Shown here piece after piece: positions 4,626-23,190 of a DNA stretch of 24,455 nt; the first letter of the stretch is position 1; each line of letters begins with the position of its first letter. The DNA is from a virus: positions 1-24,455 of IMG/VR virus record IMGVR_UViG_3300006751_000129; one strand, 5' to 3'. A program made the position numbers and the translations under genes. The notes below the pieces were generated by a model that saw only the letters and a list, made by a program, of their open reading frames with translations, did not search any database and was not told the DNA's origin.

Positions 4626-6125
4626 ATGGGATTAAGAAATTTTGGCAATAAAAATGATGCTTCATTTGGAAAAGGTAGAGATAAAAGTAGAATACTTTAC
4701 GCAGCTGTTGTTGTCAATTTTATATCAAATCCAATAGTAGACTTAAAAAAGGTACCAGCAAATGATGAAGAATTGACATATGCACAATCACTTTTGAGGG
4801 GAGCAAACAAAGTATCAAATGCTGATCTCATAATGAAAATGCCAAGATCATCGATTATTGCAAATGTAATATCAGATAGAGACGGATGGAAAAGCTTACC
4901 TGAAATATTCTATCCATTTTTTCCGCATATGTCTTTCCCAGTCAAACCGGGAGAGCAGGTATGGGTAATATACGATACTGACAAGAGATCAAAATCAAGA
5001 AGAGGGTACTGGATGACAAGAATAGCATCAGATCTTCAGGTTGATGATTTAAACTATACACATCTTAATAGAGAGATTCTCTATTTGAATAAAAGCAGTG
5101 CTGATACAAGCCCAATGGAGGCACATGAAGGAGCAGCACTTTTTACCGAAGATATAGCATATTCATATCCCTTGGGTGGTGGATCAACTGTAACAAATAA
5201 TACACTTCCGGGAGATAATCCATTTGGAAATATAATTGCATCATCTCCTTCGTATGTTGATCAATTTATAGGAGAGCCAGTTCCAAGATTTAGCAAGAGA
5301 GTTGGAGATTTTATATTACAAGGTTCTCATAATACTTTGATATCGATGGGCGCTGATAGAAGTGGAGACACAGATACAAGACCAGGTATTGGTGATTTAG
5401 CTGGTATAACAGGCGACACTGATATTCTCAAAGGGTACGGAACTATAGATATTGTTACAGGAAGAGGGCAGACAGACACAACATGCCCAGTATATCCAGA
5501 GGGAAGTACAAATGATGTTTATCTAGGAGAAGGTGTAGTTGAAAATGATAGAGAGTACGAAGAAATAGATAAAATGGCTGAGTCGTTTGGAAGATCTTCA
5601 AATCCAAATGAGGGAGATACAGACTTTATTTATGATCTTTCGAGATTGTATATTTCAATGAAAACAAGTGGCGATGCAAACTTTGGATTATCTTTTACAT
5701 ACCTTGACAACGTTGATGAATCTCCGTACATAATTGCAAAGTCAAATGAGATAAGACTTATCGGAAGGGGAAGCGTAAGAGCAATGTCAGAAGCCGGCGC
5801 TGAGCTTACACTTATGTCAACTGGTGAAGGAGCTTTAATTGGGAGTAGAGTATTTCTAGGTGCAGCATCTTATGATCATGTAGACTGGGGCAGTCCAGAT
5901 ATGGAATCTGGCCATGAGCATGTAATAAAAGGAGATACGCTTCTTGTTGCATTTGAATCATTTCTTGAAGAATATAAAACTCTAGAAGCCACAATTATAA
6001 CTTATAATGGATCTCCTATTCCCGGGCTTAATTGGGACATAGGCTTTGGAACTCTACTCAGTTTATTTGAGACACTTGTTGGAGATATACGAGAATCTTT
6101 GAGTGATATTGTTCATACAGCATAA
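4626..6125 (+). CDS. gp5: gp5-like baseplate central spike/hub protein with OB fold, no lysozyme domain
   Basis: This 499-residue protein is a likely baseplate central spike or hub subunit. Residues about 20-135 look like the gp5/VgrG-type OB fold: an opening strand (RILYAAVVVNFI), a long insertion, PFFPHMSFPVKPGEQVWVIYD (GEQVWVIYD at 109-117) and GYWMTR at 127-132. Residues 210-420 are rich in Gly, Asp, Ser and Thr with short strand-like stretches, as expected for a beta-helical spike (for example DFILQGSHNTLISMGADRSG and EIRLIGRGSVRAMSEAGAEL). The C-terminal segment HEHVIKGDTLLVAFESFLEE is followed by helices. T4 gp5 carries a lysozyme domain after its OB fold; no such domain is visible here, so peptidoglycan cleavage must be supplied elsewhere. 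It opens the baseplate gene block. Confidence 0.72.
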   Translation: MGLRNFGNKNDASFGKGRDKSRILYAAVVVNFISNPIVDLKKVPANDEELTYAQSLLRGANKVSNADLIMKMPRSSIIANVISDRDGWKSLPEIFYPFFPHMSFPVKPGEQVWVIYDTDKRSKSRRGYWMTRIASDLQVDDLNYTHLNREILYLNKSSADTSPMEAHEGAALFTEDIAYSYPLGGGSTVTNNTLPGDNPFGNIIASSPSYVDQFIGEPVPRFSKRVGDFILQGSHNTLISMGADRSGDTDTRPGIGDLAGITGDTDILKGYGTIDIVTGRGQTDTTCPVYPEGSTNDVYLGEGVVENDREYEEIDKMAESFGRSSNPNEGDTDFIYDLSRLYISMKTSGDANFGLSFTYLDNVDESPYIIAKSNEIRLIGRGSVRAMSEAGAELTLMSTGEGALIGSRVFLGAASYDHVDWGSPDMESGHEHVIKGDTLLVAFESFLEEYKTLEATIITYNGSPIPGLNWDIGFGTLLSLFETLVGDIRESLSDIVHTA

Positions 6126-6151: not shown

Positions 6152-6178
6152 TTTAATAGAATTATATAGAGGAAAAAT

Positions 6179-6781
6179 ATGAGCCTTGCAGCACCACTAG
6201 CAGCATGTCTTTCTGCTGATCTCGATGCAGCTTCAGCTGCATTTGTAATTGGAGAGGTTGAAGCTTATTGGGGGCCAATAGCAGACGCAAATATGGCAAT
6301 TGTATCTCCAATACTCGATGCAATATGCGTATTAATAAGCGCAGACCCAGACCTCCCCTTTGAAATACCCTCGTTTTTTGCAGATATATCGTTCGATATA
6401 CCGACAATTATTGCATCAATAGGATTGCCAGTATTCGATTTAGATCTTGATATATACTTCGATCTTCCAGATATAGTATTGTCATTTCTCATAGGGTTGC
6501 TTACAATACCGATAGATATTGTTCTTGGGTGGTTCGAATCCTGGCCGAATATTGAGATACCTGATTTTGATCTAATGTTTCAGCTTGTACTAGATTTAGG
6601 CTTGACATTACCTGATATAGCAATAGATTGTATTGTTGAGTTTATGCTTATTCCATTTATGGCAGTTGAAGCTGCTCTAGAACTAAGCCTTCCTCCTAAT
6701 GCTGAAGCAGCAATTGAACTTGGAATATGCGCAGGATCTGGTAGTGATATAGATCTCGACGTACTGCTGGAGTGGCCATGA
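6179..6781 (+). CDS. Acidic hydrophobic protein lacking all basic residues, unknown function
   Basis: I do not recognise this 200-residue protein. It has no Lys, Arg or His, but by my count 22 Asp and 11 Glu, so apart from the N-terminal amine it carries only negative charge. It is also very rich in Ile, Leu, Phe, Val, Ala and Pro. Segments such as LPFEIPSFF, VFDLDLDIYFDLPDIV and IEIPDFDLMF alternate acidic and hydrophobic residues with prolines, suggesting short amphipathic strands. A strongly hydrophobic stretch (about 96-120, LSFLIGLLTIPIDIVLGWF) could be a membrane segment. Four cysteines lie at 10, 50, 151 and 184. AGAGGAA at 6168-6174 is a good ribosome binding site. Its place between gp5-like and gp25 genes suggests a baseplate, spike-tip or membrane-contact role, but this is inference only. 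Confidence 0.65.
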   Translation: MSLAAPLAACLSADLDAASAAFVIGEVEAYWGPIADANMAIVSPILDAICVLISADPDLPFEIPSFFADISFDIPTIIASIGLPVFDLDLDIYFDLPDIVLSFLIGLLTIPIDIVLGWFESWPNIEIPDFDLMFQLVLDLGLTLPDIAIDCIVEFMLIPFMAVEAALELSLPPNAEAAIELGICAGSGSDIDLDVLLEWP

Positions 6782-7014
6782 GCAATAAAGAAGAGTGGCT
6801 AGATTTCATAAAAGAATGTATATCAAGAAGAACATTAAGCAATAATCTTTCAGAAAAAGTTGAAAATAGATCAAAAATTTGCAGTAATTGTTCAAAGCTA
6901 AATATTATAAAAAGAATGGGATTTTCGCTATCTGCGAGATGTAAGAGTTCACAATGTTGTTTTCCAATGATATTATATGTAGAAAATAAACAATGCCCAG
7001 ATGGCAAGTGGTAA
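6778..7014 (+). CDS. Small cysteine-rich (CPxGKW) protein, paralogue 1
   Basis: This 78-residue protein has the layout of small phage proteins with a cysteine cluster and a C-terminal CPxGKW signature, probably zinc-binding and of unknown role. Cysteines occur as CSNC, then RCKSSQCCFP, then CPDGKW at the very end. Compared with its downstream paralogue, the cysteine four residues before Phe-Pro is replaced by Ser, and an extra Cys directly precedes Phe-Pro, so the metal site may be altered. Start: ATG 6778 overlaps the previous stop as ATGA, with TGGAG 5 bases upstream; an in-frame GTG at 6772 is less likely. The N-terminal half is helical and charged. It may be an assembly factor or minor virion component given the baseplate context. 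Confidence 0.7.
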   Translation: MSNKEEWLDFIKECISRRTLSNNLSEKVENRSKICSNCSKLNIIKRMGFSLSARCKSSQCCFPMILYVENKQCPDGKW

Positions 7015-7032: not shown

Positions 7033-7305
7033 ATGTCTATTAAAAATATAATTGATGGCTGGCTAAATTATACAATGATAAAGCTTCTTAAGACAAAAGA
7101 TCCGTCTCCTGAGGCAAGAAAGCATATTGAGGATAGATATAATCACTGTAGCTCATGTCCCCATCTTAAGGGAAAAAAGTTAAAAAAGAGAAATATACCA
7201 ATAATGTTTTGTAATATGTGTGGGTGTGGATTTCCAATGCTAATTTTTGCTCCAGCAAAAGAGTGTCCAGCGGGAAAGTGGAAATCTATGCCAGATGATA
7301 TTTAA
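7033..7305 (+). CDS. Small cysteine-rich (CPxGKW) protein, paralogue 2
   Basis: This 90-residue protein is a tandem paralogue of the gene just upstream. It shows the fuller form of the motif: CSSCPHLK, then CNMCGCGFPM, then CPAGKW near the end, giving a set of six cysteines that suits a zinc ribbon. A basic stretch (KGKKLKKRN) lies between the first two clusters. Small phage proteins with this cysteine pattern are common and are usually annotated as of unknown function (possibly DUF6171; the number is from memory). AAGGT about 10 bases before the ATG is the ribosome binding site. The motif makes it a real gene; the function is open. Confidence 0.72.
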   Translation: MSIKNIIDGWLNYTMIKLLKTKDPSPEARKHIEDRYNHCSSCPHLKGKKLKKRNIPIMFCNMCGCGFPMLIFAPAKECPAGKWKSMPDDI

Positions 7306-7378: not shown

Positions 7379-7858
7379 ATGCCAAAATTTAAGTTTAAGA
7401 GCTCTGGAGTAAATGTAGATAATGTTGAGCTTAAAACAATAGTTGAGTCGAGGCCTATTGGTGTAGCAACGCCTTTAAGTCTAGGCTCAGGCAGATCCGG
7501 TTTGTTTGAAATGAATTTTGATCCTGTCGAACAAATATCAGATAATCTTAGAAATTTAATATTGACCAATGCTGGTGAAAGATTGGGAAATTACTACTAT
7601 GGAGCAAATTTAAAACCAATAACTACTGAATATAGTAGTATGGAAGATTTTGAAAATGCTGCAATGACAAGAATTTTAAATGCTGTAAATCAATTTTTAC
7701 CAATAGTAGATTTGGATTCATTTTCTGTATCGCGAGTTCAAGAGGATGATGGAAACGCAGATAGAGGATTATTAAGAATTGATATGACAGTAAAGTATAA
7801 CATACCACAGCTAAGAATTGGTGGCAAAGTTTTAAATGTTTCAATGTACGTAATATAG
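7379..7858 (+). CDS. gp25: gp25-like baseplate wedge subunit (GPW/gp25 family)
   Basis: This 159-residue protein belongs to the GPW/gp25 family. In T4 gp25 is part of the baseplate wedge, contacts gp6 and gp53, and helps to start sheath polymerisation; homologues occur in type VI secretion baseplates. The family core is clear at residues about 45-80: ISDNLRNLILTNAGERLGN then YYYGANLKPI, matching the usual L-x-T-x-x-GER-x(5-7)-G pattern. The C-terminal half (SVSRVQEDDGNADRGLLRID and MTVKYNIP) gives the closing beta hairpin. It is somewhat longer than T4 gp25 (132 residues), mainly at the N-terminus. GGAG at 7367-7370 lies 8 bases before the ATG. gp6 follows 9 bases after the stop, consistent with the two acting together. 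Confidence 0.88.
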   Translation: MPKFKFKSSGVNVDNVELKTIVESRPIGVATPLSLGSGRSGLFEMNFDPVEQISDNLRNLILTNAGERLGNYYYGANLKPITTEYSSMEDFENAAMTRILNAVNQFLPIVDLDSFSVSRVQEDDGNADRGLLRIDMTVKYNIPQLRIGGKVLNVSMYVI

Positions 7859-7867
7859 GCAAATTAT

Positions 7868-9727
7868 ATGGCAAATAATAAAAAGAATACACTATCATCA
7901 ATAAGATCAAGTCAGAGATCATATCTTAATAGAGACTTTGACACATTTAGATCGCAACTAACAGATTACTCAAGAGCATTCTTTTCTGATAAGATAGCTG
8001 ACTTTGGTCCAAATGGATTTGCTGGGATGTTTATAGAATTAGCATCCTATGTTGGAGACGTTATGTCTTTCTACATGGATCATCAGTTTAATGAACTTGA
8101 TATAATGTCTGCTGTAGAAAATGAAAACATAGAGAGGCTAGTAAGAAATTCTGGCGTAAAAATAACTGGTGCAGCTCCTTCAACTGTTGACGTAAACTTT
8201 TATCTAGAGGTTCCTTCTATATATTCATCTATGGTGGGCGATTATATTCCTAATGAAATATTTCTACCAATAATAAAAGCAGGAACTGTAGTATCTTCAA
8301 ACTCAGGTATAAATTTTACTCTTACAGATGACATAATATTTTCAGAGAAAAATATATCTGGAAATCTATCTTGTGAATATGTTTCTATGAAAATATCATC
8401 AGACGGATCTCCAAGTACATTTTCTGTAAAGAAATCTGGGTTATGTGTATCAGCAAAAACAGTCAAGGAGAACTTCAGTATAGGCGATAAGTTTATGCCG
8501 TTTAGGACAATAACTCTATCATCAATTGATGTCTCAGAGATAATATCTATTGTTGATTCTTCTGGAAATGAATATTATCAAGTAGACTCTTTAACACAGG
8601 ATACAGTATTTAGAAGAGTTTTAAATACAAGTTCTGATTCAATAGAGGTTCCAGAAAATCTTGAATTAATATCTGCTCCGTATAGATTTATATCACAAAC
8701 TTCTAATATAACAAAGAAAACAACAATTAGATTCGGCGGGGGGTCGAGTGATGCACCAGACTCTGATATGATGCCAGATCCATCAGATTTGACAATACCC
8801 TTGTATGGAAAGCGAAAAACTATATCTACATTTACAATAGATCCAAATAGACTTTTAAAAACAACTACCCTCGGTGTTTCACCTCAAAATACACAAATAA
8901 CTGTAACATATAGATCTGGCGGGGGAATATCACACAACGTAGCTGCTGGGTCAATTAGAAAAGTAAGCTCTTTAAAATCTAAATTTAATAGTTCTGTAAA
9001 TGCAGCAAATGTTGCAAGCATAAGATCTTCTATAGAAGTAACTAATAAAAATGATGCAACAGGTGGAGAGCAAGCACCTACTATAAATGAGCTTAGGTCA
9101 ATAGCACTATCTTATAGAAACTCACAGTCAAGAATTGTAACAAAAGAAGATCTAATAGCAAGAATTTATACAATGCCAAGTAAGTTTGGAAGAGTATTTA
9201 GAATTGGAATTAGAGCAAATCCAAACAATCCACTCTCTTCAGAGCTATCTATAATAAGCAGAAATAAATTAGGAAAACTAATAATATCTCCAGACTCGTT
9301 AAAGCAAAATTTATCAACATATCTCAATGAATCTAGGTTAATATCAGATGCAATAGATATAGTTGATGCTGCTGTTATAAATGTAGCATTGGAGTATGGT
9401 GTAGTATGCTCAGCCTCTTCAAACCCTGAAACAGTAATTCAACTAATAAACAAGGATATATCTGAATATTGCAAAATAGAAAATTTTCAAATAGAGCAAC
9501 CAATATTTCTATCAGATTTGGCAAATATAATAATAAATAATCAAGATGTTGTATCGCTTGTTGATTTTACTTTCTATAACATGGCAGGTGTTGTTGAGGA
9601 TAGAATATATAGTGATGTTACTTATGCAATAAATGAGAATATAGATAGGGGAATACTTGTATGTCCGGCAGGGTCAATATTTGAATTCAAATTTCCCAAT
9701 GATGACATTGTCGGAGTAGCGAGGTAA
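7868..9727 (+). CDS. gp6: gp6-like baseplate wedge protein
   Basis: This 619-residue protein is the likely gp6 homologue (T4 gp6, 660 residues). In T4 gp6 dimerises to form the ring that holds the wedges of the inner baseplate. The N-terminal region (SSQRSYLNRDFDTFRSQLTD, then GMFIELASYVGDVMSFYMDH, residues 15-77) is the characteristic helical start of gp6-type proteins. Residues about 404-445 (PTINELRSIALSYRNSQSRI and VTKEDLIARIYTMP, then KFGRV) match the conserved baseplate-J/gp6 segment. The C-terminal part (DISEYCKIENFQIEQPIFL, then SDLANIIINNQDVVSLVDFT) is the usual ending. It is immediately downstream of gp25. The assignment rests on motifs and order. Confidence 0.85.
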   Translation: MANNKKNTLSSIRSSQRSYLNRDFDTFRSQLTDYSRAFFSDKIADFGPNGFAGMFIELASYVGDVMSFYMDHQFNELDIMSAVENENIERLVRNSGVKITGAAPSTVDVNFYLEVPSIYSSMVGDYIPNEIFLPIIKAGTVVSSNSGINFTLTDDIIFSEKNISGNLSCEYVSMKISSDGSPSTFSVKKSGLCVSAKTVKENFSIGDKFMPFRTITLSSIDVSEIISIVDSSGNEYYQVDSLTQDTVFRRVLNTSSDSIEVPENLELISAPYRFISQTSNITKKTTIRFGGGSSDAPDSDMMPDPSDLTIPLYGKRKTISTFTIDPNRLLKTTTLGVSPQNTQITVTYRSGGGISHNVAAGSIRKVSSLKSKFNSSVNAANVASIRSSIEVTNKNDATGGEQAPTINELRSIALSYRNSQSRIVTKEDLIARIYTMPSKFGRVFRIGIRANPNNPLSSELSIISRNKLGKLIISPDSLKQNLSTYLNESRLISDAIDIVDAAVINVALEYGVVCSASSNPETVIQLINKDISEYCKIENFQIEQPIFLSDLANIIINNQDVVSLVDFTFYNMAGVVEDRIYSDVTYAINENIDRGILVCPAGSIFEFKFPNDDIVGVAR

Positions 9728-14894: not shown

Positions 14895-15767
14895 ATGCCA
14901 ATACTTCCGTTCAATGATAGACCATATGTAAATATAAACTATATAAGTGATATATCTGTAAATGGGTCTAACGGAATAAATACATCAGAGATAGATATGT
15001 TTAGGCAGGGTATAAATGTTAAGACAAATAAATACTTTTGCGATAGAATTTTACCAATAATAGGATCAAAAGCACTCCCTGCAAGGCAAAATGACTTAAT
15101 AGATTTCTCAATAGAGAGAACAACATATGGGTATGTAGACTTATTTATTGAATCAAATAATGATAAAACAGTTGCACCATTTGATGATATATCTTCACTA
15201 AATAATCCAGTTTCTTTTCTAAAGGATAGCGGAATAACAGCATACCCACAAGTAATGCTTAGCCCAAACTGGCTTGATCCCGGCGCTATGAATGGAATAA
15301 TCGAACCGCTATCTGTAAGAGGGACAATTCCAGGTGCCAGCATAGAATCTCCATTTGTTTATAATACTATTAAAGCAGATGTAACAGAGACATCATATCT
15401 AGTAGAGGCTTATATACTCTTTGAGTCAGCCAAGAGTACAATTTTTGATATAACATCACCGTTTATTGATTCACAAGATTTAAGTTTTGTAACTGATAGT
15501 GTTATAATATCAGATGCTGGAATTTCTGATTTTGGACCAGGAACACTTTCACCCTTCATGGGTGATACATCGGTATTCATTATTAAAAACGATCTTAAGT
15601 CAATGACATCATCAGACTTTAACGATTGTGTAGGTCTAGGGATAATAAGAATGGGTACACCTCACGGATTCGTTTATTCAAGCGAGAAATCAGTATCCTT
15701 ATATGAGAGTGGAATTAGAAATGTTTGCGGTGTAGACTCACTAGCATTTGGCGGATTATTAAAGTAA
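14895..15767 (+). CDS. Putative virion structural protein, unknown
   Basis: This 290-residue protein has no domain that I can name. It begins MPILPFNDRPYVNINYISDI and contains a region (about 34-100) with INVKTNKYFCDRILPIIG and IERTTYGYVDLFIESN. The rest is rich in Ser, Asp, Pro and Ile with predicted strands and little charge, as in tail or baseplate accessory proteins. No signal peptide or membrane helix is seen. It lies between two LamG-bearing giants, and its stop overlaps the next ATG as TAATG, so it is probably made together with the 1421-residue protein. A connector or fibre-attachment role fits the context but is inferred. Confidence 0.6.
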   Translation: MPILPFNDRPYVNINYISDISVNGSNGINTSEIDMFRQGINVKTNKYFCDRILPIIGSKALPARQNDLIDFSIERTTYGYVDLFIESNNDKTVAPFDDISSLNNPVSFLKDSGITAYPQVMLSPNWLDPGAMNGIIEPLSVRGTIPGASIESPFVYNTIKADVTETSYLVEAYILFESAKSTIFDITSPFIDSQDLSFVTDSVIISDAGISDFGPGTLSPFMGDTSVFIIKNDLKSMTSSDFNDCVGLGIIRMGTPHGFVYSSEKSVSLYESGIRNVCGVDSLAFGGLLK

Positions 15768-18700
15768 TGGCAAGATATAGAAAATCAAAATTTAATGCAT
15801 TAAAAGATTTTGTAACTGTTGATGGACAGTATCAAAGAAAGGATAGCGTAATAGGGTACTGGAAGTTTGAAGATGATGTATCTGAATTAGGCAGTACTGC
15901 TGATAGATCTAAGACAAAAGCAAATCTAACTTATACAACATCAGGAAGGCCATCATATAGCCAGCAAACTCCAGAGTCTAGAAAATACATACAGAAAAAT
16001 ACAGCTCTATTTAACTCAAGCCACGGAATTATAGGAAACCCTTCTGGAAACTCTTTATCATTTGGAAATGGTGCAACAGATAAGCCGTTTAGTATTTCAT
16101 TTTGGATAAAGCCAGTTCTAAAGATGGATGGAAATAATAATGAGTATGATATCTTTCTTAAGATGACAGCTGGCGGTTACGAATATGCTGTATATCTCTA
16201 TGAAGAATCTGCAAGACCTGGTCAGGCTAAGCTTACATTCAAGCTTTATAACGCTGGGGGAACAACAGCAAATGCAAATATCTTTTGCTCAACAGAAAGT
16301 GTAACAAGAGATAGTAGAATTAGATATGATCTTGATAGAGACAAGTGGTATAACTGTACAGTAACTTATGATGGAAGCGGCGCAGCAGCTGGTCTAAAAA
16401 CATACGTAAATGCTATAGAAAACTCAACAGTTGGAACAGGTGCTGGCGGGTACACAGCTATGAATGCAACAGCTTCAGAGATAACTGTTGGAAGACATTT
16501 TACAGGAGCATCAAATTACTTTTCCGGAAACCTGTCTTCAATAATGATGTGGGATGTTTGTCTAAGTCAGTCTAATATCACTGCTCTATATCAAGCTGCA
16601 TCTGGACCCTACAATGCAATTTCTGGATATCTAAATGATCCCTATAGGGTCATGTTAAGAAATCTTGACAATAGAACTGGATCATATCCTGGAAATCTTA
16701 GAACAACTGGCATGTCAGGTGGCGAAAAGGGAAACTCAGCAATAGCATTTAGAGATCAAAGTACAATAGTATTCAGCAACAAAGAACAGGCGCTTTACCC
16801 TATAGTTCTAACACAAACAGAAATATCACAGTCTGGTATACATGATTTACTATCATCACCAAATATGCTGCCAGATATAATTGCCCCAGGATCATCAAAA
16901 CCATCTATTTCAACAGATCCCCTTGATAGAGATTTTTATAATAATCACCCCTACACTCCGTTTGAAGATAGCAGAGTCTATTTAAAAGACAAGAATACTA
17001 GTGCATTTTTTGCATCTGGCACAAGGCATGACGTATATCCCGGATTTGGATCACCCGTAAGAGATAAATACGCAATCGGTATAGACATATCTTGTGGAGA
17101 GGAAAAGGTAGTTAGCAGATATAATACAAACGGATTACCCATCGACCCGCTCGGTATAATGACAAGGCGCCCTTACGCCCCCACAGATGGTGCACACACA
17201 CGCCCTAAGACCGGATTTTGCTATTTTAATAAAGATCTTAGAAGATGGGAAGATATAGGTCTATCAATTATATCGTCTGCTTCAATTACTGACTATAGAA
17301 TGTGGGAAACAGTGTATGAAGATTTTGCATATGCACATGATGGAAATCGATGGCGTCCGGCTGGTATGTCACGACCCAATGGCTCAGATGGCGGACAGGG
17401 AATACGATATGCGGGCGACGTTCCAAAAGCATATCAGTTTAAAATGTCTGACCATATGGGCTCGTTTGCTGGGACAAAAAATGTTCTTGTAAATAATTTT
17501 GGATATGATAAAATAGGCTCACCAACAAGATCAGGTCAAGCACCATACCATAAAATGTATCATGCATCTTCTAGCCAAACAATACAAATGTCTGACTATA
17601 TAACAGCACCGTTTGCAGTTGAAAAGATAGTTCTTCAAATACCAATAACTGCACAAACAATGCTAGGATCACAAGCAGCTACAGGCAAGAAATTTCACGA
17701 TTCAGTAAGAGATATAGATAATTACACATTCTTTCTATATAGACAATCAAGATCAGGGGGAAATTTTGACACTGACTCACGTGAAGATGTAGAATCTTCT
17801 AGACGATATTTATTTGCTAGTGGCTGCGCAGCATTTTATAATTCAAACGCATTCTCTTCGTCTGTTTCAGCTGAAATTTTAACTGACGGCCTTCCTCACA
17901 CACCAGCCTGGTCACATGATTGGGATAATAATATATTTCAAGGTGAACAAAATATAAGACACATGTCAGTTTTTACCGGATCAATAGTTGTAAAAATGAC
18001 TCCCGCAGTTGGAAACTGCCAGTTTTTAGGCGGCAGCAGATTTCCAGTAAAGGCAGCAAAACTCACACCATCAGCTGAGGGTGTTCAACTTGGTTGCGGA
18101 GGAATAGTTATATCGGATTTTTGGGAAGGTGGAACCACAGCTGCTTCAGCCTCTCTTATCGGGTCTTCTAACTGGCAAGTAGACGTACACTACCCACTAA
18201 TGCCGTCAGGGACACATGCAGCTGACGTCGCAGATGGATCTAGTCCAGCAGCAACAGATGGGTATGCAATGAGTACAGGAAGTATAGGAATGGCAAACTC
18301 TCTTGTTGGAAACATTAGAAGGTTCCAGCCTACATTAAATTCGTCTCCAAGATCTCAAAATTCCCCAAGGTACATAAGCGGCTGGCCAGCAACATATACA
18401 AAAGCAGTCTTGAGACCAGAGCCATACTCCTCAGATGCACGTGTCCCTGTATCAGAAATACCAGATGATAGAAGACCCCTTAGAGGATTTACAGGTGAAA
18501 GGACTTCAAGACAGACATATATCCCATATGTCTCTACTTCTTCGTGGTCAAGAGTTTATAGAACACCCGATCAGCAAGGAATACTAAATTATACAGCAAA
18601 CAAGGGAAAGCTCACATTTGGAGATCTTCCCGGGTCCACAGAATCACCGTATGTTTTGCTTCCAGGCGATGAGTTAGTTTTGGGCATCGATGCTGGAATA

Positions 18701-20032
18701 TCAATGTTGCCAGTTAGCGGTACGGGTACACTGTGGGGTCCATCAAAGCCAGATATAAACTATCATGGATTTACAAAGTTTAAAAATGAAAACGAATTTT
18801 TCGGATGCATGTCAGCATCATTTATGCAAATAACGACTGATACTGCAAAGCTAACAATATTCGGAAGTCTTATAAGAGAAGATAAAGAATTAATGTTTGA
18901 GACAAATCAGAATCTAACTTCAGATGCAATTCATGAAAGTGTAGGGTGTGATAGAGTTACTGATCAATATATGGTAAGTACACGAAGAGAGATGTCAGCT
19001 TCATATCTTGACAGATGGGTAGCAGGCGTTTTTACAGAAGAGGAAAGTCTAGCACGAGATGGGTTTAATCGAACAAACGTATGGCCGCCGCCAAGAAGGG
19101 TATATGGGCTCTTTTCAAAGCAAGTTGATGCTTCTAACTTAAATAGACTTTCACCATATCACTGGTTTCGAAATTACGAGAGGGGAACATGGGCACCCGG
19201 ATACGTTGGTATCTCACTCCTGTCGAATTTTAGGGCTGATCCGTTTGGAGTTAGCTCAAGAAATGTTCAATTTGTTAAATCCGCAAATATAAGATCTTCT
19301 CAGAGATTTGTATCACTTGTAGATAAGGAAGAAAGATACTATGATTCTATCATGCCAAAAATATCAAGCTATATGTCAAACTCACTTAGTCTTGGAAGGA
19401 CTCTAGAACCGGGATACATGTCTAAACTTCTCTACACATTTGAACCTGAGGCGTGGGGTAGCGCAGATAAGAGATATGCTTACGGATTTCCATATGCAAA
19501 AAATCCACCCAGACAAATAGTTGATAAAACTTTTATAAAATTTGTAGATAGAGAAGGGGGATCAAATATATTTTCTGCATATACGCAGAGAACAGTCGTC
19601 AATACAACACTATTTCAAAAAGGTTGGCGCTGGTCAGGATTATCAACAATAATGACAACAGATACATCAGGATCATGGTGTAATCTCTATGGAATTAAAA
19701 ATGTTAGAAGAGAATTTACAAAAGCAGTATTTAGATCTGATCGATATGGACAGTTTAGAGACATGCTTGAACAAAGAAGAGATACAAAGTTATATCTCAG
19801 TAAAGATCTAGAAAAAGGGATCTCAGACTCTCCAGTTCAGGTCAAATTTGTAAAATCTTCTGACGGTGTAACACAAGTACCGCCTCATGAAACAGACTCT
19901 GCAAATTTTTCAACCGAGTATACGTCTTCAATACCCTATGTAGATGCAGATCAACTATCAGGTCTAAAAGTATACTTAGGATTGCCAACATTTGTAATTA
20001 CAAAAGCTGATTTCACTGCAGGCACCTCATAG
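15767..20032 (+). CDS. Giant LamG-domain tail/adhesin protein
   Basis: This 1421-residue protein is a likely tail or baseplate adhesin. Residues ~26-285 form a clear LamG/concanavalin-like domain: DSVIGYWKFEDD, FSISFWIKPVLKMD, DKWYNCTVTYDGSGAAAGLK, ITVGRHFTG, NYFSGNLSSIMMWDVCLSQS. Such jelly rolls typically bind glycans. The remaining ~1100 residues have no domain I recognise; they are rich in Ser, Gly, Tyr, Arg and Pro, with few long helices, as in large phage surface proteins. A late conserved-looking segment, YGQFRDMLEQRRDTKLY, lies near residue 1330. The start is the ATG at 15767 that overlaps the preceding stop; the upstream in-frame TTG at 15725 lies inside that gene. Bases about 17100-17420 are locally GC-richer and use CGN arginine codons, unlike the AGA used elsewhere. 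Confidence 0.72.
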   Translation: MARYRKSKFNALKDFVTVDGQYQRKDSVIGYWKFEDDVSELGSTADRSKTKANLTYTTSGRPSYSQQTPESRKYIQKNTALFNSSHGIIGNPSGNSLSFGNGATDKPFSISFWIKPVLKMDGNNNEYDIFLKMTAGGYEYAVYLYEESARPGQAKLTFKLYNAGGTTANANIFCSTESVTRDSRIRYDLDRDKWYNCTVTYDGSGAAAGLKTYVNAIENSTVGTGAGGYTAMNATASEITVGRHFTGASNYFSGNLSSIMMWDVCLSQSNITALYQAASGPYNAISGYLNDPYRVMLRNLDNRTGSYPGNLRTTGMSGGEKGNSAIAFRDQSTIVFSNKEQALYPIVLTQTEISQSGIHDLLSSPNMLPDIIAPGSSKPSISTDPLDRDFYNNHPYTPFEDSRVYLKDKNTSAFFASGTRHDVYPGFGSPVRDKYAIGIDISCGEEKVVSRYNTNGLPIDPLGIMTRRPYAPTDGAHTRPKTGFCYFNKDLRRWEDIGLSIISSASITDYRMWETVYEDFAYAHDGNRWRPAGMSRPNGSDGGQGIRYAGDVPKAYQFKMSDHMGSFAGTKNVLVNNFGYDKIGSPTRSGQAPYHKMYHASSSQTIQMSDYITAPFAVEKIVLQIPITAQTMLGSQAATGKKFHDSVRDIDNYTFFLYRQSRSGGNFDTDSREDVESSRRYLFASGCAAFYNSNAFSSSVSAEILTDGLPHTPAWSHDWDNNIFQGEQNIRHMSVFTGSIVVKMTPAVGNCQFLGGSRFPVKAAKLTPSAEGVQLGCGGIVISDFWEGGTTAASASLIGSSNWQVDVHYPLMPSGTHAADVADGSSPAATDGYAMSTGSIGMANSLVGNIRRFQPTLNSSPRSQNSPRYISGWPATYTKAVLRPEPYSSDARVPVSEIPDDRRPLRGFTGERTSRQTYIPYVSTSSWSRVYRTPDQQGILNYTANKGKLTFGDLPGSTESPYVLLPGDELVLGIDAGISMLPVSGTGTLWGPSKPDINYHGFTKFKNENEFFGCMSASFMQITTDTAKLTIFGSLIREDKELMFETNQNLTSDAIHESVGCDRVTDQYMVSTRREMSASYLDRWVAGVFTEEESLARDGFNRTNVWPPPRRVYGLFSKQVDASNLNRLSPYHWFRNYERGTWAPGYVGISLLSNFRADPFGVSSRNVQFVKSANIRSSQRFVSLVDKEERYYDSIMPKISSYMSNSLSLGRTLEPGYMSKLLYTFEPEAWGSADKRYAYGFPYAKNPPRQIVDKTFIKFVDREGGSNIFSAYTQRTVVNTTLFQKGWRWSGLSTIMTTDTSGSWCNLYGIKNVRREFTKAVFRSDRYGQFRDMLEQRRDTKLYLSKDLEKGISDSPVQVKFVKSSDGVTQVPPHETDSANFSTEYTSSIPYVDADQLSGLKVYLGLPTFVITKADFTAGTS

Positions 20033-21267: not shown

Positions 21268-23190
21268 ATGCCTATTAAATCACAAATAAGATTGCAACAA
21301 CTCACTGGGTCAATGGTTGCAATTAAAACTTCTGCTGCATTGAGACAGGGTCCGGGAACTGTTGCGACCGCAACGGGTTCAAATGTAGAGGATATCTTTG
21401 GATACTTTGGTGCAGCAATTCAAAGAATTGTTGGAGCAGCATCCGGAGAAGCATTCAACCAAGCAGTTGGAACAATTGCATCACCTGGCGACTATCTCAT
21501 TGATTCAGGTGATCACGTAATTCTAGATGCTACACACGGTCTATTCGTTAAGGATGGCGGTGCATACGTTCTAGATGTTCCACTATCAGGAAGTGCCTGG
21601 ACAGCAAGCAAAATTGTTGATATTAAAGCTGTAGGATCAGCTGAGTCTATTCACCTTAGAGGTAATGGAAACAGACTTGGTATTGCAGGTGCAAAATTAG
21701 CAAATGTTAATGGAGGAGCAAATGCAATTGTAGAGGTAATGTCATCAGGATCAAGCCCACTAGCTATTAAACTCAATGCCCCTGCCGGTGGTATCGATGC
21801 TTCTGCTGCCACTGGAATTGAGTTTGAATCAACTGCCGGTGCATTCTCAGTAGACGTTAACAACAGAGTATTCCTATCAGGCTCTGATATTGGAATCAAG
21901 GGTGAAAGTGCAGCAGCTAACGCTATCAGGCTCGAAGCTTCTGCTGGAGGTATTGATATTGACGCAGCTGGTGCTATAGCAATAGATGGTACAGGTATCT
22001 CACTTGACTCTGATGCATCTTCAAACTTCAGTACGTCTGTTGGATCACTAACACTAGTTGGTGCGAATAGAACATTCGTAACAGGTTCAGACGTAGGTAT
22101 CAAGGGAACTTCTGCAGCAGCTAACGCCATTAGGCTAGAAGCTTCTGCTGGTGGAATTGATATTGATGCGACGCTTGGCGGAATAAATGTTGCATCGACA
22201 GCCGGACCATTCACAGTTGATGTCAACAATAGAGTGTTCTTATCAGGATCTGATATAGGTCTTAAGGGTGAGAGTGCTGCTGCTAATGCAATAAGACTCG
22301 AAGCTTCTGCTGGTGGAATAGACGTTGATGCAGCTGGTGCTATAGCAATAGATGGTACAGGTATCTCACTTGACTCTGATGCATCTTCAAACTTCAGCAC
22401 ATCAATTGGATCACTAACATTTGTTGGTGCGAATAGAACATTCGTAACAGGTTCTGATGTTGGAGTCAAGTCAACATCAACAGCTGTTAATTCAATTAAT
22501 ATAGAAGCTTCAGCTGGTGGAATGGTCTTGTCAGTTCCAGATCAAAAGGGCTTGTCTCTTGGTAAGGCTGGCGGTGCAGAGATTCTTATCACACCTCATG
22601 ATACACCAGCTAGTGAGAAGATACTAGTTGAGAATAGTGCAGGTACTGCATTAGACTCTGTTCTTCTAAGATCACCAGGTGGTGTTATAGCTTCAGGATC
22701 ACAGGTTCAGCTAACTGGATCAGATGGTGTATTCTTTGCTTCACATAAAGATATGACTGGCGATAGAATAAAACTAGCAAACACTGGAGATTGGACAAGC
22801 TTCGTTGGAAATGCACTCTTTGGTGCAAGCACAACAATAATTGGAGCACTAAACGTTCTAGCTTCAGCTGCCGGTGGTGGCCAGATAGGCTATGCTGTTC
22901 TAACTGGATCAGTTTCTTCACCAGATCCTTTCTCGCTAAATGCAGCGTCAGGATTCGTAAATGGAAATGGATATACGCAGCACACTGCATTCATTCCAGG
23001 CGAAGTTAATCCAGCAAACACTCAGGTGTATGTAAATGGTCAACTACTTGCAAGTTCATCAAATGCTGCTGCACCAACAACTTCTGGTGACTATCAGATT
23101 GTTAGAGGTGTTACTGGTCAGATCAAGTTCAGTTTTGATCTCGAGGAAGATGATGTTGTACTTATAAAAACCTCTGCACAACAAAGCTAA
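21268..23190 (+). CDS. Repeat-rich, probably abundant virion surface/fibre protein
   Basis: This 640-residue protein is probably an abundant virion protein, perhaps a fibre or surface decoration. After an N-terminal part (residues 1-110, SQIRLQQLTGSMVAIKTSAA) come repeats of a GGIDIDA-type unit: NRVFLSGSDIGIKGESAAAN and AIRLEASAGGIDID alternate with ANRTFVTGSDVGIKGTSAAA, in two 122-residue super-repeats. Such short Gly/Ala/Ile/Asp repeats suggest a beta-helix or elongated shaft. The C-terminus (residues ~585-640, VYVNGQLLASS, DYQIVRGVTGQIKFSFDL, DDVV) matches the end of the fibre gene at 20044. Codon use is less AT-biased than its neighbours, the ribosome binding site is near perfect, and a strong terminator follows, all pointing to high expression. 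No catalytic motif is seen. Whether it is tail- or capsid-bound is unknown. Confidence 0.72.
   Translation: MPIKSQIRLQQLTGSMVAIKTSAALRQGPGTVATATGSNVEDIFGYFGAAIQRIVGAASGEAFNQAVGTIASPGDYLIDSGDHVILDATHGLFVKDGGAYVLDVPLSGSAWTASKIVDIKAVGSAESIHLRGNGNRLGIAGAKLANVNGGANAIVEVMSSGSSPLAIKLNAPAGGIDASAATGIEFESTAGAFSVDVNNRVFLSGSDIGIKGESAAANAIRLEASAGGIDIDAAGAIAIDGTGISLDSDASSNFSTSVGSLTLVGANRTFVTGSDVGIKGTSAAANAIRLEASAGGIDIDATLGGINVASTAGPFTVDVNNRVFLSGSDIGLKGESAAANAIRLEASAGGIDVDAAGAIAIDGTGISLDSDASSNFSTSIGSLTFVGANRTFVTGSDVGVKSTSTAVNSINIEASAGGMVLSVPDQKGLSLGKAGGAEILITPHDTPASEKILVENSAGTALDSVLLRSPGGVIASGSQVQLTGSDGVFFASHKDMTGDRIKLANTGDWTSFVGNALFGASTTIIGALNVLASAAGGGQIGYAVLTGSVSSPDPFSLNAASGFVNGNGYTQHTAFIPGEVNPANTQVYVNGQLLASSSNAAAPTTSGDYQIVRGVTGQIKFSFDLEEDDVVLIKTSAQQS
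21829..22528 (+). repeat. Two tandem copies of a 366-bp coding repeat
   Basis: Copy 1 covers 21829-22194; copy 2 starts at 22195 and stays recognisable to about 22528. The period is 366 bp (122 residues), and each copy holds two related ~60-residue units. Identity is uneven: a 68-bp block (21964-22031 and 22330-22397) and a 32-bp block (22057-22088 and 22423-22454) are identical, while the parts between differ at many third positions. Confidence 0.9.

Follow-up and report, generated by a model that had tools for sequence, protein, structure and literature searches.

A phage protein free of basic residues occupies a variable genomic slot whose content follows the tip type of a putative tail hub

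The window, that is, the whole analyzed stretch of 24,455 nucleotides from the IMG/VR record of an uncultured tailed phage, contains a tail locus in which a gene for a protein without a single Lys, Arg, or His is placed between a putative hub gene and two baseplate wedge genes. The genes and features of this locus are as follows.

4626-6125, + strand: putative hub/spike gene (499 aa), directly upstream of the basic-free gene, assigned from the gene order hub-gp25-gp6 in approximately 76 loci and from the family alignments A4 and A8.
About 5733-6122, + strand: variable C-terminal tip region of the putative hub.
6168-6173, + strand: Shine-Dalgarno-like AGAGGA, read from the sequence, 5 nt upstream of the ATG of the basic-free gene.
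6179-6781, + strand: gene of the basic-free protein (33 Asp or Glu but no Lys, Arg, or His among its 200 residues; Cys at residues 10, 50, 151, and 184).
6479-6535, + strand: conserved hydrophobic segment spanning residues 101-119, a candidate membrane helix (with Asp/Glu taken as charged, its Wimley-White octanol sum is -9.9).
6778-7014, + strand: small Cys-rich ORF with an ATGA overlap with the basic-free gene.
7033-7305, + strand: second Cys-rich ORF, a paralog of 6778-7014, with the pattern CxxC...CxxCGCxFP...CPxGKW (PHROG_13558 of unknown function, E 8e-5).
7379-7858, + strand: gp25-like baseplate wedge gene (phrog_43, 7e-5; Pfam GPW_gp25, 6.7e-4, below the Pfam cut-off).
7868-9727, + strand: gp6/Baseplate_J-like wedge gene, used as the synteny anchor (phrog_6, 8.5e-16; Pfam Baseplate_J above the cut-off).

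Two further genes of the window may be mentioned here. The 640-aa protein encoded at 21268-23190 contains repeated 'FVTGSDVGIKGTSAAANAIRLEASAGGIDID'-like units, and the mechanically called ORF 15725-20032 starts at a TTG within the preceding gene, its true start probably being an ATG near 15767.

A reading of the sequence alone had placed the basic-free gene between gp5-like and gp25 genes. The position between the hub gene and gp25 was confirmed, but no profile confirmed the likeness to gp5: profiles of the hub gave no match to T4 gp5, P2 gpV, VgrG, the PDB, Pfam, or PHROGs. With hhalign, the C-terminal part of the hub matches at 93% the protein in the hub position of Flavobacterium phage immuto, and the gene order parallels V-W-J of P2 and 5-(5.4)-6 of T4. 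We infer the spike identity of this neighbor from its position. The genome of one related locus, L069, has separate sheath and tube genes, which indicates that these are contractile phages. The same genome (G013, 70935-77313) carries two consecutive long sheath-like genes of approximately 1070 and 1040 aa, the first of which matches the PHROG tail sheath.

Translation of ORF 6179-6781 (+) gives 200 residues with K=0, R=0, H=0, D=22, and E=11, a net charge of -33, and a GRAVY of +1.02, in full agreement with the absence of basic residues, the approximately 33 acidic residues, and the strongly hydrophobic composition that the sequence-only reading had described. Its judgment that such an absence is unlikely also holds, as the chance of zero Lys, Arg, and His in 200 positions is about 1e-11 at the basic rate of 11.9% found in the other window proteins. 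The longest run free of these residues in any other ORF of the window is 69, and the lowest fraction among 471 ORFs of at least 100 aa, taken from about 76 related loci and lying outside the interval between hub and gp25 (the slot), is 6.1%.

A sequencing error that shifts the frame had been named as one way in which the peculiarity could be spurious. All 603 bases are identical in two further IMG/VR contigs, the ATG is preceded by the ribosome-binding-like site listed above, and the stop codon overlaps the start of the next ORF (ATGA). Two orthologs, in the related loci L009 (4335-4877) and L069 (3359-3907), share 29% and 35% identity with the protein, respectively, in alignments that start at residue 1, and the substitutions relative to one of them number 74, 44, and 101 at codon positions 1, 2, and 3. 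A frame error or a wrong strand is ruled out by the orthologs, the codon-position pattern, and the identical independent copies; ORF 6179-6781 is a real gene with orthologs and not a frameshift. Base composition was likewise rejected as the cause of the missing Lys, since the GC3 of the gene (0.25) is similar to that of its neighbors.

The statement that no named family fits the protein was upheld: no match was found in Pfam, PHROGs, NCBIfam, PDB sequences, or 50,697 phage records, the best hit among PDB sequences being a viral glycoprotein with an E of 0.58, taken as chance. A direct search with the protein returned near-identical copies only, a pattern search found no copies in bacterial genomes, and a literature search found, among the papers covered, none on phage proteins lacking Lys and Arg. 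A search for virion proteomics of related phages with an occupied slot likewise gave no result. The family is new, and we infer its function below.

Relatives were reached via gene order. A search with the gp6 protein yielded 47 loci and a search with a gp6 alignment yielded 80, many of them closer. Approximately 76 related loci have the order hub gene, variable slot, gp25, and gp6, and where the contigs reach further, the fuller order is glycosyltransferase, small membrane protein, sigma-like gene, 120-aa gene, hub, slot, gp25, and gp6. Relatives of the basic-free protein fill the slot in six distinct loci, the window included, and have 0/200, 4/180, 4/182, 2/147, 1/145, and 6/192 basic residues per length, with zero His and one Arg in all six combined. 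The orthologs of L009 and L069 each contain four Lys and neither Arg nor His; the shorter or more distant relatives are those of L071 (two basic residues; its true start is probably an upstream GTG), L073/L092 (one), and L122 (six). Profile comparison (88.5% and 80%) ties these to the family, as do a shared C-terminal motif of the type DAAIxLxGC and, in most cases, the Cys-rich ORF downstream; the link of L071, L073, and L122 to the strict orthologs is made by the profiles and the shared neighbor, the pairwise scores not being strong. All four Cys are kept in the three orthologs, and one N-terminal and one C-terminal Cys are present in all six proteins. Homologs with normal numbers of Lys and Arg, which the sequence-only reading had named as a refutation, did not turn up, all members carrying between zero and six basic residues: the whole family is nearly devoid of them. 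The close relatives L066 and L067 have no basic-free gene, which shows that some phages can do without it. The Cys-rich family is confined to loci with the basic-free gene, being present in five of the seven carrier rows and in none of the 69 others.

The single possible membrane segment noted earlier corresponds to residues 101-119 and has a counterpart at the equivalent position of each of the five other relatives, with Wimley-White octanol sums from -4.2 to -8.9. This conserved hydrophobic segment lends indirect support to the suggested contact with the membrane. The proposed strands of alternating Asp and Glu, in turn, were not predicted. AlphaFold2 models, with a pLDDT of 36 for two sequences and 49 for six, were all helix and of a confidence too low to be usable, and fold searches with the latter gave no match, as expected at such quality.

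The slot between hub and gp25 is empty or holds a short gene in many related phages and contains long hydrophobic proteins in others. The median basic fraction is 6.3% for 40 distinct slot proteins of at least 100 aa versus 11.9% for the 471 other ORFs of the same loci (Mann-Whitney P=3e-19), and the eight lowest fractions all belong to slot proteins, from eight loci. Thus low basic content characterizes the slot as such, the window protein being its extreme. The slot families B, C, Cp, D, and E (at L021, L022, L072, L085/L086, and L112) share with the basic-free family the genomic position and a hydrophobic, acidic, basic-poor composition, and several of them have hydrophobic C-termini, with C-terminal hydrophobic, glycine-rich stretches in the long families. 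They differ in their length of 340-440 aa, in the hub tip of type III, and in showing no convincing homology; in particular, homology of the basic-free family with the long hydrophobic families B and C was not detectable. The longer family C proteins have PHROG matches to tape measure proteins, which are probably driven by composition. In Microcystis phage Mel-JY01 (L006, 5948-6979) the slot is occupied by an endolysin/chitinase-like protein (phrog_181, 1e-32), which fits a role in penetration.

Individual slot proteins are unusual in other ways. Those of L085 (3416-4438) and L086 (3401-4435), with 340 and 344 aa and six and four basic residues, respectively, contain 12-14 Cys and 12-13 Trp ('DCDWDWDLIWDI') and by length are more extreme than the window protein. 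The 310-aa slot protein of L128 (3473-4405) has a GRAVY of +1.61 and consists almost wholly of hydrophobic helices.

The last 80-110 residues of the hub sort into types, and the slot family follows them. When carriers of the basic-free family are left out one at a time and scored with a profile of the remaining carrier tips, the hubs of L009, L069, L071, L073, and L122 reach 67-124 bits and non-carriers at most 36. With the type III tip profile, again leave-one-out, the carriers of long slot proteins score 87-107 bits and one non-carrier, L101, scores 76-88. Among the 11-12 independent pairs on the gp6 tree that differ in tip class, none is opposite in slot class (p ~0.002), and with 12 pairs approximately 10.4 are concordant; the classes had initially been drawn after the data were seen. 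The leave-one-out tests are independent of motif patterns, as is the distance test, a partial Mantel comparison of slot family with tip type given gp6 distance (r=0.29, a value that none of 2000 permutations attained). For instance, L069 and L067 are 70% identical in gp6 and 66% in the N-part of the hub, yet L067 has a different tip and no slot protein of the basic-free family, whereas L069 and L009, with 68% in gp6 and 61% in the hub N-part, share 81% in the tip and 62% in the slot protein. The change in similarity falls inside the hub gene and not at its border. These observations indirectly support the earlier idea of a contact with the spike tip. The hub tip of the window itself has diverged and has no clear fit to its group: the profile built from the tips of the remaining carriers gives it 25.7 bits, which is the background level of unrelated tips. 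As a separate case, L101 combines a type III tip with an empty slot (hub end 4447, gp25 4490), and a search of its 98-kb contig for a long slot gene elsewhere, run without a positive control, gave no match.

Taken together, the nearly equal extremeness of the relatives and the tie to particular spike-tip types suggest a spike-linked protein working at or in the bacterial membrane. We tentatively propose, at somewhat less than even odds, that the basic-free protein belongs to an exchangeable spike-tip module that acts at the membrane in penetration or DNA entry. Against this proposal stand the diverged hub tip of the window, the lack of any profile match of the hub to gp5 or VgrG, and the absence of the gene from L066 and L067. 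Such a module would combine the C-terminal tip of the hub with a hydrophobic slot protein poor in basic residues and, in many cases, with a small Cys-rich protein. In the virion, the slot protein would sit on or next to the spike tip and, after sheath contraction, would reach the inner membrane from outside, where its conserved hydrophobic segment could insert and help the tail or the DNA through the envelope. In detail, Asp and Glu might become protonated, or an anionic passage might form for the DNA. The absence of positive charge would fit insertion from outside, as the protein would have no positive-inside anchor and would not stick to anionic lipid or DNA. Moreover, a protein lining or adjoining the DNA path should not bind DNA, so positive charge would be avoided.

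The proposed arrangement resembles the type VI secretion system, where exchange of the C-terminal domain of VgrG switches effector specificity while the N-parts are alike, for example, in the pairs VgrG4b-PldA and VgrG5-PldB (PMC6684961). In both, a conserved N-part of the spike is followed by a variable C-terminal tip, and the adjoining gene family follows the tip, here across the lineage but not clearly for the tip of the window itself. In the phage system, in contrast, neither a toxin or enzyme domain nor an immunity gene was seen. In T4 the order is gp5-5.1-segC-5.3-5.4-gp6, gp5.4 being the PAAR tip protein, and PAAR tips bind metal (PMC10715212). The slot protein shares with gp5.4 the interval between the hub/spike gene and gp6 and, as proposed, the same apex, but is twice as long, hydrophobic, and without basic residues. 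It has no Pfam match to PAAR and an hhalign probability of 0.1% with T4 gp5.4, and homology to T4 gp5.1 or gp5.4 was rejected. Hydrophobic segments borne on the tail, as proposed for the slot protein, are also a feature of tape measure proteins such as that of TP901-1, where they have been suggested to form the channel through which DNA crosses the membrane (PMC5099701). A tape measure protein would be expected to be long and helical, to set the tail length, and to match PHROG tape measure families; the basic-free protein, with 200 aa, has no PHROG match and falls far short of the length needed to measure a tail.

Several other explanations of the same observations were considered. A tail-assembly factor or chaperone, an acidic hydrophobic protein that covers a sticky hub tip during assembly and is absent or passive in the mature virion, would also explain why the slot gene varies together with the tip and is missing where tips differ, why its product is so strongly negative, and why it lies in this operon; the Cys-rich neighbor could then be a zinc-binding assembly partner. 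We regard this as rather unlikely, because the conserved, strongly hydrophobic segment and the C-terminal stretches of the long slot families are unusual for soluble chaperones and the slot of Mel-JY01 encodes an endolysin-like protein. A structural tip or cap that replaces T4 gp5.4/PAAR, with no membrane insertion of its own, seems less probable than a chaperone. The interval between hub and gp6 is the same as that of T4 5.4, the slot family is linked to tip type, and an acidic protein with Cys residues could coordinate metal in the manner of PAAR tips (PMC10715212), but the protein is twice the size of gp5.4, shows neither a PAAR match nor profile similarity, and has a GRAVY of about +1 and a membrane-like segment, and the slot is empty in many related phages.

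Being small, hydrophobic, and accessory in its presence and absence, the protein could also act in the membrane of the infected cell (holin-like, in superinfection exclusion, or in host takeover) and merely be located in the baseplate operon. Holins normally have basic residues on the cytoplasmic side, which are missing here, and no holin family was matched in Pfam, PHROGs, or NCBIfam; the gene has the same position at every locus where it occurs, and its family tracks the hub tip, which leaves a role outside the virion with a lower probability than the cap. Finally, the co-variation of tip and slot can stem from joint transfer of neighbors without physical contact. On this reading, neighboring sequence is swapped in blocks and the slot gene is cargo with no functional tie to the hub. 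Phage genomes do exchange blocks, L101 has a type III tip with an empty slot, and the window tip is unlike its group. Since about ten independent changes are concordant and none contrary, the shift in similarity lies inside the hub gene, and low basic content recurs in unrelated slot families, we consider such hitch-hiking the least probable of these explanations.

The spike-tip module acting at the membrane may be part of a broader scheme. By analogy with VgrG-effector pairing, these phages could form a contractile lineage with interchangeable tip modules, whose delivered partner would be a membrane-inserting, anionic DNA-entry pore nearly or wholly free of positive charge, a trait selected because it allows entry into the inner membrane from outside; this extension is speculative and on balance improbable, slightly more so than the chaperone. 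In sum, the basic-free protein is real, unusual, and conserved in kind, and is best taken as a putative accessory protein of the spike, although there is a moderate chance that it is something more. How contractile phages cross the inner membrane after piercing the outer one is poorly known, and the slot family offers a concrete candidate, a small, extreme, exchangeable family that adjoins the putative spike gene and occupies a slot whose content varies with tip type. The near-absence of Lys, Arg, and His may serve as a compositional signature for finding such proteins where sequence searches fail.
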